NCBI RefSeq assembly: GCF_900104745.1
Contig: NZ_LT629732.1
Coordinates: forward strand, 1,054,001 to 1,118,000
Reading direction: 5' to 3'
Source of the DNA: Actinopolymorpha singaporensis
Lineage (GTDB): Bacteria > Actinomycetota > Actinomycetes > Propionibacteriales > Actinopolymorphaceae
DNA length: 64,000 nucleotides
The notes under the pieces were generated by a model that ran no database searches, was not told where the DNA came from, and saw nothing but the letters and a program-made list of their open reading frames with translations. Made by a program: the position numbers and the translations under genes. Positions 20,447 to 57,370 of this stretch are shown in pieces (the stretch's first letter is position 1; each line of letters opens with the position of its first letter).

Positions 20447-20460
20447 GTTCCACGTGGAAC
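20447..20460. promoter_or_regulatory. parS-like palindrome
   Basis: GTTCCACGTGGAAC is a perfect 14-bp palindrome, two symmetric changes from the canonical ParB site GTTTCACGTGAAAC. It lies between two EEP genes if the GTG at 20405 is the true start. An identical copy is at 51426-51439. Confidence 0.5.
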
Positions 20461-50870: not shown

Positions 50871-51323
50871 TCAGGCCCGGGCGATGGCGTCGACGTGGGC
50901 GACATTGGCCCGGTCGTCGGCCTCCTCGCTCGGCCGACCCTCGAACCACGCGTCCAGAATCTCGGTCAGCAGCGGCCCGGAGACCACCCGGAGGCTGAGG
51001 GCAAGGGCGTTCGCGTCGTTCCAGCGCCGCGCACCGGTGGCGGTGTAGGCGTCGGCGCACAGGGCCGCCCGCACACCCGGCACCTTGTTGGCGGCGATCG
51101 ACGCTCCGGTACCCGTCCAGCAGCACACGACGGCCTGGTCGGCGCGGCCGTCGGCGACGTCACGGGCCGCCGCCTCACTCGCCCAGGCCCAGTCGTCACG
51201 GTCGTCAGCGTCACCGGGGTTCAGCGCGCCGTGGGTCAGCACGTCGTGGCCGCGCCGGCGAAGGTCGGCGACCAGTGCGTCGGCGACACCGGCCGCCATG
51301 TCGGAGGACACCGAGATGCGCAT
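50871..51323 (-). CDS. RpiB/LacA/LacB-family sugar-phosphate isomerase
   Basis: The 150-residue protein fits the RpiB fold, with MRISVSSDMAAGV, VCCWTGTGASIAANKVPG (the conserved Cys and GTG loop) and RAALCADAYTATGARRWNDAN (the phosphate-binding DAxTA and catalytic-pocket residues). Members isomerise ribose-5-phosphate or allose/galactose phosphates. Short length and missing N-terminal part of the canonical RpiB motif suggest a divergent substrate. It lies just downstream of gnd, so it may take part in pentose phosphate flux. Confidence 0.85.
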   Translation of the reverse strand: MRISVSSDMAAGVADALVADLRRRGHDVLTHGALNPGDADDRDDWAWASEAAARDVADGRADQAVVCCWTGTGASIAANKVPGVRAALCADAYTATGARRWNDANALALSLRVVSGPLLTEILDAWFEGRPSEEADDRANVAHVDAIARA

Positions 51324-51414
51324 GTCGGTGACCGTACTCCGAAAGACCCCCGAGACGACACGTCGGTGGGCCCCCGGGGAAGCCCGGAGCCCACCGACAC
51401 CATGCCGAACAGTT

Positions 51415-51450
51415 CGGCCGCGTTCGTTCCACGTGGAACGAACGCGGCCG
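51415..51450. promoter_or_regulatory. perfect 36-bp inverted repeat with parS-like centre
   Basis: From 51415 to 51450 the sequence is a perfect inverted repeat with 18-bp arms and no loop; its centre is GTTCCACGTGGAAC (51426-51439), two symmetric changes from canonical parS. It lies between gnd and the RpiB gene, 23 bp after the gnd stop, and could also act as a transcription terminator. Confidence 0.65.
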
Positions 51451-51472
51451 GACCGTTGTCAGAGCTCGACGA

Positions 51473-53005
51473 TCAGGCTTCGCGCTCGGACCGGTCGCCG
51501 GACCATTCGAGGTGGAACGAACCCTCCGCGTCGGTACGGCGGTAGGTGTGCGCACCGAACAGATCGCGCAGCCCCTGCAGCAGGGCCGCCGGCAGCCGGT
51601 CGCGGCGCAGCGCGTCGAAGTACGACAGCGCGGCACCGAAGCCGGGCACCGGGACACCGGCGGCGGCCGCGGTCGCGACCACCCGGCGCCAGGCCTCCTG
51701 ACCCTCGTTGACCGTCCGCGCGAAGTACGGGTCGACCAGCAGCGAGGGCAGGTCGGGCGTCTTCTCGTACGCCTCGCGGATCCGGTCCAGGAAGCGCGCC
51801 CGGATGATGCAGCCACCGCGCCAGATGGTGGCCATCGCGCCGAGGTCGATGTTCCAGTCGTAGGCCTCCGCGCCGGCCCGGATCATGTCGAACCCCTGGG
51901 CGTAGGCGACCACCTTCGACGCGTACAGCGCGCGGCGAACGTCCTCGACGAACTGGTCGGCATTGTCGACGGCCACCTTCTCCGACGGCTCCGACGGCCC
52001 CTCGAGCACGCCCCGGGCCGCGTCGCGCTGCTCGGCGTGACCGGACACCGATCGAGCGAAGACCGCCTCGGCGATGCCGGACACCGGGGTGCCGAGGTCG
52101 AGCGCGATCTGCACCGTCCAGCGGCCGGTGCCCTTCTGCTCGGTCTGGTCGAGCACCTTGTCGACGAACGCGCCCTCGCCGCCACGCGGGTCCTTCGCGG
52201 CAAGGACCTCCGCGGTGATCTCGATCAGGAACGACTCGAGGTCGCCGGTGTTCCACGTCCGGAAGATCTCGGCCAGCTCGTCGGGCGTCTTGCCCAGGAC
52301 CGTGCGCAGCAGGTCGTACGACTCGCCGATGAGCTGCATGTCGGCGTACTCGATGCCGTTGTGCACCATCTTCACGAAGTGCCCGGCACCGTCGGCGCCG
52401 ACATGGGTGCAGCACGGCGTGCCGTCTACCTGTGCGGAGATGGACTCCAGGATCGGTCCGAGCGTCTTGTACGCCTCGGCGGTGCCACCGGGCATGATGC
52501 TCGGGCCGTTCAGCGCGCCTTCCTCGCCGCCGGAGATGCCGGTGCCGACGAAGTGCAGGCCGCGCTCGCGCAGCGCCGACTCGCGCCGGCGGGTGTCGAT
52601 GAAGTGGGCGTTGCCGCCGTCGACCAGGATGTCGCCCGGCTCCAGCAACTCGGCCAGCTGGTCGATGACCTCGTCCGTACCCGCGCCGGCCTGGACCATG
52701 ACGATGACCTTGCGCGGCCGCTTCAGGGAGCGGACCACGTCGGCGAGCGACTCGCAGGCGATGAAGTTGCCCTCGCCGCTGTACTCCGCGATCAGGGAGT
52801 CGGTGCGCTTCCGGGTGCGGTTGTGCACCGCGACCGTGTGGCCGTTCCGGGCGAGGTTGCGGGCCAGGTTGCGGCCCATGGTGGCCAGGCCGGTCACGGC
52901 GATGTCGGCCTTGTCCGGCGTCTCGGGCGTCTGCACGGACGCCTCCTTCTCGGACTGCTCCGGCTGCGCGGCCGTGCCGCCGGGCTCGGTCGTCGTTTCG
53001 GTCAT
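51473..53005 (-). CDS. gnd: 6-phosphogluconate dehydrogenase
   Basis: The 510-residue enzyme has the NADP-binding start (IAVTGLATMGRNLARNLARNG), the substrate-binding LVDGGNAHFIDTRRR, FVGTGISGGEEGALNGPS and the catalytic lysine in GHFVKMVHNGIEYADMQ. It oxidises 6-phosphogluconate to ribulose-5-phosphate, making NADPH. ATG 53005 has GAGAGG 9 nt upstream; the N-terminal 30 residues are an unusual Pro/Glu-rich extension. Its start overlaps the anmK stop (ATGA), so it is translated from the same message. Confidence 0.95.
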   Translation of the reverse strand: MTETTTEPGGTAAQPEQSEKEASVQTPETPDKADIAVTGLATMGRNLARNLARNGHTVAVHNRTRKRTDSLIAEYSGEGNFIACESLADVVRSLKRPRKVIVMVQAGAGTDEVIDQLAELLEPGDILVDGGNAHFIDTRRRESALRERGLHFVGTGISGGEEGALNGPSIMPGGTAEAYKTLGPILESISAQVDGTPCCTHVGADGAGHFVKMVHNGIEYADMQLIGESYDLLRTVLGKTPDELAEIFRTWNTGDLESFLIEITAEVLAAKDPRGGEGAFVDKVLDQTEQKGTGRWTVQIALDLGTPVSGIAEAVFARSVSGHAEQRDAARGVLEGPSEPSEKVAVDNADQFVEDVRRALYASKVVAYAQGFDMIRAGAEAYDWNIDLGAMATIWRGGCIIRARFLDRIREAYEKTPDLPSLLVDPYFARTVNEGQEAWRRVVATAAAAGVPVPGFGAALSYFDALRRDRLPAALLQGLRDLFGAHTYRRTDAEGSFHLEWSGDRSEREA

Positions 53006-56500: not shown

Positions 56501-56620
56501 GTTTCCAGGATGCCGCGTAATGCGGGCGGATTCGGTCCGGATTCGGTTCTACGGTGGCCGGCGTGGGCTTGAACAGCCGACTTCTCCGCTCTCCCGAGCG
56601 TTCCCGAAAGGAATCCGCAG

Positions 56621-57370
56621 ATGGCCACCTACGTACTCGTCGCCGGCAACTGGCTCGGCGCCTGGGCCTGGTCGAAGGTCACCGCGCGCCTGCGCGCCGC
56701 CGGCCACGACGTCCACCCCGTCACGCTCACCGGCCTGGGCGACCGGGTGCACCTCACGTCCCGGGAGGTCGACCTGGACACCCACATCGCCGACGTCGTG
56801 AACACGATCGAGTACGCCGACCTGCACGAGGTGATCCTGGTCGGCCACAGCTACGGGGGCTTCCCGGTGACGGGCGCGGCCGAGCGCATGCCGGACCGGC
56901 TCGCGCGCCTGGTCTACGTCGAGAGCGGGCCGCTGCCCGACGGCACCTCCCAACTGGACATGACCGGACCGGAGGAGCGCGAAGCGATACTGCGGCGCAT
57001 GAAGGAGCGCGAGGACGGCTGGCTCCTTCCGCCGCCCTCCCCGGCCGAACTCGCCTCCGGCGTACCGGTGTACGCCGGGCTCGACGAGGCGGCCCGGGCG
57101 TCGTTCACCGCCCGTGCCGTGCCGCAGCCGCTCAACGCCAACGCCCAGCCACTCCGGCTCGCCGACGACGGGCGGCGCCACGGCCTGCCGCACACCCTGG
57201 TCACGTGCATGTTTCCCGTGGAACAGGTGCGGGCGATGGTTGCCGAGGGCCATCCGTACTTCGCCGGGTTCGCGGGCAAGGAGTGGACCTACGTCGAGCT
57301 GCCGACCGGACACTGGCCGATGCTGTCCGAACCGGAGCGGCTGGCGCAGGCGCTCGCCGACCTGAGCTGA
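56621..57370 (+). CDS. alpha/beta hydrolase
   Basis: The 249-residue enzyme has the nucleophile elbow GHSYGG (Ser at about 77), an acid in the core, and His in TGHWPML. It resembles the salicylate-esterase/hydroxynitrile-lyase-like branch (YVLVAGNWLGAWAWSKV, LTGLGDRVHL). GAAAGGA is upstream of the ATG. It is divergent from the WYL regulator. Confidence 0.85.
   Translation: MATYVLVAGNWLGAWAWSKVTARLRAAGHDVHPVTLTGLGDRVHLTSREVDLDTHIADVVNTIEYADLHEVILVGHSYGGFPVTGAAERMPDRLARLVYVESGPLPDGTSQLDMTGPEEREAILRRMKEREDGWLLPPPSPAELASGVPVYAGLDEAARASFTARAVPQPLNANAQPLRLADDGRRHGLPHTLVTCMFPVEQVRAMVAEGHPYFAGFAGKEWTYVELPTGHWPMLSEPERLAQALADLS

Follow-up and report, generated by a model that had tools for sequence, protein, structure and literature searches.

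A putative outer-tier parS site in a perfect palindrome downstream of gnd in Actinopolymorpha singaporensis

Just behind the gnd gene of Actinopolymorpha singaporensis lies a perfect inverted repeat of 36 bp. A first-pass annotation had suggested that it could be a loading site for ParB, a terminator of transcription, or both, and the question raised by the locus is which of these it is. The window in which we have analysed it is a stretch of 64,000 nucleotides (positions 1,054,001-1,118,000 of the single contig of 6,403,569 bp; genome G000), and window coordinates are used below for the features in Table 1.

The gnd palindrome and its conserved centre

The palindrome is located at exactly 51415-51450, with arms of 18 bp and a spacer of zero, and has the parS-like sequence GTTCCACGTGGAAC at its centre (51426-51439), as the first-pass annotation had described. 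With some mispairing it can be extended to arms of 25 nt (51408-51457, 92% complementary). Just one other zero-spacer palindrome with arms of at least 9 is present in the window, and its arms are 9 in length. The palindrome begins 22 bases past the stop codon of gnd, within a non-coding gap of 149 bp between gnd and an rpiB-type gene, both of which are on the minus strand.

The core is an exact 14-mer match to the 14-16 bp palindrome GTTYCACGTGRAAC, which occurs in this genome in two spellings that we term C/C (GTTCCACGTGGAAC) and T/T (GTTTCACGTGAAAC). The window contains two exact copies of GTTCCACGTGGAAC and a further copy with two mismatches; shuffled versions of the window gave a mean of 0.30 matches with up to two mismatches. 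Base composition by itself predicts 0.017 copies of GTTCCACGTGGAAC in the 6.4-Mb genome. The genome-wide count gave two, both of them in the window. The core has the bases that mark parS, G at position 1 and A at position 6, and lacks those of a Noc binding site (NBS), by the criterion given in the relevant part of PMC7383237. The outer bases of the gnd site are C...G, compared with T...A in the 16-mer consensus. These outer positions also vary among the T/T sites of the genome itself, and the consensus of Myxococcus xanthus ends in G, so T...A was not counted as strictly defining for parS.

Table 1. Features of the window discussed in the text.
Feature	Position	Strand	Basis
parS core GTTCCACGTGGAAC, C/C class, putative	51426..51439		window and genome counts; identical in the same place in 4/6 genomes of the genus
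Conserved 18-bp palindrome, TC + core + GA	51424..51441		positions -9 to +9 invariant in 4 genomes
Full perfect palindrome, 18-bp arms	51415..51450		long outer arms in this strain, imperfectly in G004
GC-rich hairpin after gnd, candidate terminator or 3'-end stabiliser	51362..51398	-	folds and covariation, four genomes
gnd, 6-phosphogluconate dehydrogenase, 510 aa from ATG	51473..53005	-	Pfam 6PGD, NAD_binding_2
RpiB/LacAB-type sugar-phosphate isomerase gene, downstream of gnd	50871..51323	-	Pfam LacAB_rpiB
Second C/C site, putative parS	20447..20460		very start of an endonuclease/exonuclease/phosphatase-family frame; identical in 4 genomes
Weak parS-like site GTTTCCCGTGGAAC, one mismatch to GTTYCACGTGRAAC	57211..57224	+	identical in G004 and G005; not found in G002

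The conserved part of the gnd palindrome is its 18-bp centre, and not the long arms. Every pairwise comparison of four genomes (G000, G002, G004 and G005) shows identity from position -9 to +9, while the adjoining 11 bases are 39% and 45% identical on the two sides. The farther flanks are 27-61% identical, in an ungapped comparison that underrates identity where small insertions occur. Across the four genomes the arms are 18, 9, 12 and 10 in length. Long outer arms are found in G000 and, imperfectly, in G004; they are gone or much shorter in G002 and G005.

These four, out of six genomes of the genus, each have exactly two C/C sites, 30-33 kb apart and in matching places. The second site, at 20447, is in well-conserved surroundings, so its identity across genomes tells less than that of the gnd site. 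No C/C site was found in the other two members of the genus, G001 (a draft) and G003, nor in G006 and G007 of the family. The gap between gnd and rpiB in G003 is shorter and has no such element, and its Gnd is 90% identical.

Related sites in the genome and across the order

A search of the whole genome gave seven exact matches to GTTNCACGTGNAAC and none in a backwards-read control. The seven comprise five T/T and two C/C sites, and all are within 129 kb of dnaA (at 1,202,547). The T/T sites lie between 1,193,546 and 1,198,940, beside parAB and dnaA; the C/C sites, both inside the window, are 97 and 128 kb from dnaA, the gnd site being 97 kb upstream of it. Chromosomal ParA and ParB are both encoded in the same genome. 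One ParB-family gene was found (E<=0.001), at 1,191,848; its product has the N-terminal, helix-turn-helix and C-terminal domains, and matches ParB/Spo0J chains such as 6t1f and 4umk. In the 19 kb at dnaA there is no clear switch in GC skew, and only one perfect DnaA box was found using four familiar spellings of the motif, so the position of oriC was taken from dnaA/dnaN.

The first-pass annotation had connected the palindrome with the origin by way of gnd, as a gene close to the origin in many actinomycetes. The site is indeed linked to the origin; the argument from gnd is weak, as the genome has two gnd-like genes and the one at the palindrome is 97 kb from dnaA. The other, about 40% identical with an open frame of 340 aa (G000:C1:1205380-1206129), adjoins dnaN and may be the origin-linked gnd that was intended. 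A general link between parS and gnd in actinomycetes was rejected: GTTYCACGTGRAAC was found at none of 80 named gnd loci (the best 80 of at least 589 matches, with the stretches around each), so the site is a clade-level feature and no fixture of gnd.

Allowing one mismatch added seven sites in the genome, compared with two in the backwards control. Four of these, all GTTYCCCGTGRAAC, are within 92 kb of dnaA, at 1,111,211 (57211 in the window), 1,171,495, 1,269,875 and 1,283,337; the other three are at least 300 kb away (872,792, 1,503,470 and 4,148,754). The sites at 1,171,495, 1,269,875 and 1,283,337 are identical in G002, G004 and G005, and that at 1,171,495 is present with two changes in G003. 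We note that these asymmetric sites near dnaA, mostly identical in relatives, are possible weak parS sites. Among all of the sites those with one mismatch need the most caution as candidate parS, by comparison with the partial occupancy in Pseudomonas aeruginosa, where four of ten proposed parS sites were those mostly bound (PMC5098823).

Across the order GTTCCACGTGGAAC is present in 56 of 117 genomes. Among the sites listed there are 75 C/C sites in 53 genomes, 69 of which share a contig with dnaA and 6 of which are on a contig without it. None of the 69 placed sites among those listed is farther than 153 kb from dnaA: 8 are no more than 7 kb away, and for the other 61 the distance exceeds 20 kb.

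The distribution of the T/T spelling was surveyed in 42 genomes. Four of these (G001, G003, G006 and G007) are without C/C sites, and the others are 38 from among the 53 for which C/C sites were listed; in 20 of the 42 the survey covered just the 20-kb stretch at dnaA. The remaining 22 are eight of this family and 14 picked from C/C-positive genomes having no C/C site near dnaA, a choice that inflates the C/C count and that left out G040, G032, G067, G069, G093 and G013 (C/C near dnaA or at 22 kb). In these 22 genomes none of the 74 T/T sites is more than 13 kb from dnaA, and the distances of the 31 C/C sites are all between 32 and 152 kb. Of 23 mixed sites, 19 are near and four are far (22, 71, 105 and 2448 kb); the site GTTTCACGTGCAAC, which has G at the variable position (G005, contig C11), was excluded from the count. 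The 20 kb at dnaA in the 20 further genomes, which include the six left out of the chosen set, contain 50 T/T, 5 mixed and 8 C/C sites.

Those eight C/C sites, within 7 kb of dnaA, belong to five genomes. In the 20-kb stretch of G032 and G067 (group f2; loci L219 and L220) both of the two sites are C/C and there is no T/T, and in G040 (f4; L218) two of three are C/C and one is mixed, again with no T/T. G069 and G093 each have one T/T site beside the C/C, and G013 has three T/T sites near dnaA with a C/C site at 22 kb. From these counts C/C seems to be the main parS in G032, G067 and G040, which suggests that the main spelling has switched within the order. The sorting of C/C and T/T by distance thus has no exceptions among the genomes of f1 and f3 that were surveyed, and is also seen in two f2 genomes (G091 and G038) and several of f4; it fails in two of f2 (G032 and G067) and three of f4 (G040, G069 and G093).

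The 44 placed C/C sites of f3 fall into three bands, at about -110 to -82, -35 to -32 and +119 to +152 kb, and their flanks are similar within a band and different between bands. When the 276 reading frames of the window were compared with 19 loci (16 of f3, three of f4) for shared gene context there was no match at E<=1e-20, and two at E<=1e-5. The frame at 56573-57367, which contains the weak site at 57211, is 31% identical over 267 residues to a gene of L204 (G081). The L204 C/C site is near the start of the protein match and 57211 is late in the window frame; with positions that differ in this way a single inherited site is disfavoured, and the match was taken to reflect a common gene family. 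Given band-specific flanks, and no shared gene context beyond this weak match, the outer C/C sites probably arose several times.

One further observation concerns parA, outside the window. The gene forms the end of an open frame of 1886 aa (G000:C1:1192567-1198227; L155:2568-8228, minus strand), in which some 1580 low-complexity residues rich in Ser, Ala, Asp, Gly and Thr precede the ParA ATPase domain. Four of the five T/T sites are inside this frame, and VSRET is the reading of three of these. Frames of giant size, 1698-1905 aa from stop to stop, are found in G000, G002, G004 and G005, the same four genomes that have the two C/C sites. The parA frames are shorter elsewhere, at 430-491 aa in G003, G006 and G007 and 375-755 aa in four genomes of f3 and f4. 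In 11 of 11 genomes (f1, f3 and f4) the parA frame contains a T/T site, read as VSRET, that precedes the aligned ATPase core by 87-366 nt. A search of the literature gave no account of the giant frame.

Alternative explanations of the palindrome and its spelling

Could the palindrome act chiefly as RNA, by terminating transcription of gnd or forming a hairpin at the 3' end of its message, with a parS-like centre that is coincidental? Its closeness to the gnd stop codon would suit this, as would the calculated fold of a 58-nt stretch (-40.9 kcal/mol in G000) and seven Rfam matches in the region at E<=1, most of them overlapping the palindrome. The fold is -36.2 kcal/mol in G004, and in the weakest case, G005, it is -20.1. 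All seven Rfam matches are far below the gathering scores, however, and assignment to a known RNA family was rejected for that reason. The invariant part of the element would form just the loop and upper stem, the outer stem being lost or shorter in G002 and G005, and the same 14-mer is found, without long arms, at 20447 and, in other families, close to dnaA. No T-run was found on either strand between 50800 and 52200. Moreover, 16 bases past the palindrome on the rpiB side there is another hairpin (51362-51398), with a folding energy of -33 to -41 kcal/mol in the four genomes. In the four sequences all 64 cells of its 16 pairs are standard and three pairs have changed on both sides, a covariation value matched by 8 of 500 shuffles and by none of the slid versions. 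Although this hairpin is also without a T-run, it appears the better candidate for a terminator. With outer arms that are not conserved, no T-run and a covarying hairpin adjacent, the first-pass suggestion that the palindrome acts as a terminator was rejected, and we regard it as very unlikely that the element is mainly RNA.

A further alternative combines the two functions, with a parS site whose outer arms, in this strain and in part in G004, form a hairpin that helps to end or block transcription near bound ParB. The perfect outer arms are not explained by ParB binding alone. The extended stems of G000 and G004, and the position between two genes on the same strand, are consistent with such a dual site; yet stems of this kind are present in two of the four genomes only, and are already followed by a separate conserved hairpin. 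On balance we think it unlikely that the palindrome has both roles.

Two other possibilities concern the spelling. C/C at the outer sites might be a by-product of coding or of G+C pressure, with a ParB that tolerates either base. GTTTCACGTGAAAC places a TGA stop codon in one of three frames, and the G+C content of the window is 70%. At the f3 sites between -82 and -110 kb and at the f4 locus L204 the plausible frame, assigned by eye, reads ACG TGG, which T/T would convert to ACG TGA. But the gnd site is non-coding, and at 20447, read as FHVEH, T/T would yield no stop in that frame. Drift should also give many mixed outer sites, and beyond 20 kb there are 31 C/C, four mixed and no T/T sites (22 genomes, 14 of them chosen for C/C). 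Avoidance of stop codons may explain some of the C/C sites in coding sequence, though not the intergenic gnd site or that at 20447; overall, a by-product falls not far short of an even chance. Alternatively the C/C sites might be read not by ParB but by another protein, Noc-like or some other regulator, and the clean parting of spelling class and distance in f1 and f3 could be taken that way. Against this, only one ParB-family gene was found in the genome, the dnaA cluster is entirely C/C in G032 and G067 and mostly so in G040, and parS and NBS differ at positions 1 and 6, elsewhere than C/C and T/T do (available part of PMC7383237). We consider a different reader highly improbable.

Proposed role and comparison with known systems

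The palindrome behind gnd is, very probably, a chromosomal parS site belonging to an outer tier around the inner T/T cluster. This assignment is made from sequence comparison, and draws on the invariant centre, the genome count, the nearness to dnaA and the fact that C/C is the parS spelling of Pseudomonas and Myxococcus; count, position, conservation and the pattern across species together lend strong support to the ParB loading site predicted in the first-pass annotation. The element itself is of a known kind and can be placed securely; it is the arrangement that is unusual.

The loading of ParB as a clamp and its recruitment of SMC are well established. At the parS palindrome a ParB dimer would dock, load as a CTP-bound clamp and slide onto the adjacent DNA, allowing ParA to move the origin region and SMC to be loaded. 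The inner T/T cluster is most likely where the bulk of ParB collects. The outer tier, two C/C and four one-mismatch sites spread over about 209 kb around the five T/T sites at parAB, would extend the loading of ParB and SMC along the flanks of the origin domain or seed it anew there. We infer that the ParB of G000 binds the gnd site, that labour is divided between the inner and outer tiers, and that the gnd site serves as an additional loading point for ParB and SMC at the edge of this domain.

More tentatively, and as a proposal likelier to be wrong than right, many chromosomes of the order may have a two-tier centromere. A tight T/T cluster at parAB would be accompanied by C/C outposts some 30-150 kb away, gained repeatedly in different genes, and spelling would be matched to distance because C/C differs in ParB loading or residence, a property that would determine how wide the origin domain organised by ParB and SMC becomes. 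We found no report of parS spelling sorted by origin distance or of a two-tier layout, which is weak evidence of novelty as the search took in few subscription papers. For the question of how the number, spacing and strength of parS sites set the size of this domain, the spellings sorted by distance in the genomes surveyed from f1 and f3, and in some of those from f2 and f4, offer a test bed for position-tuned parS sequence, and the takeover by C/C at dnaA in G032, G067 and largely G040 is a natural contrast for ParB specificity.

The elements of this scheme have precedents. Dimers of ParB with bound CTP are loaded at parS, from which they spread, and they recruit SMC (PMC12511625). In a binding study in Burkholderiales the same double change, to C/C, retained high binding (PMC5450999). 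A close likeness is seen with parS1-4 of P. aeruginosa, which have the same 14-bp core GTTCCACGTGGAAC as the gnd site; by ChIP-seq, ParB is found mostly at sites with this core, and the region surrounding oriC in which a parS works spans about 650 kb (PMC5098823). New parS clusters near the native one are tolerated in Caulobacter (PMC5815017). The sites here are within distances such as those in these two bacteria. In P. aeruginosa, however, C/C forms the main cluster, whereas here that place is taken by T/T, with C/C in the outer tier. M. xanthus has 22 sites with the parS consensus TGTTCCACGTGGAACG; the single consensus is given in the part of PMC7022226 consulted, where a second class is unmentioned. 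Among actinobacteria, Mycobacterium smegmatis has GTTTCACGTGAAAC, as in the inner cluster here, but in three sites of a single spelling (same source). In Corynebacterium glutamicum parS1-10 lie tens of kb from oriC, in a 35-kb cluster at 73 kb, and there is ParB-dependent enrichment of SMC; unlike the arrangement in A. singaporensis, this is a single cluster of 16-mers like those of Bacillus subtilis, with no two tiers described in the portion of PMC7083940 available.
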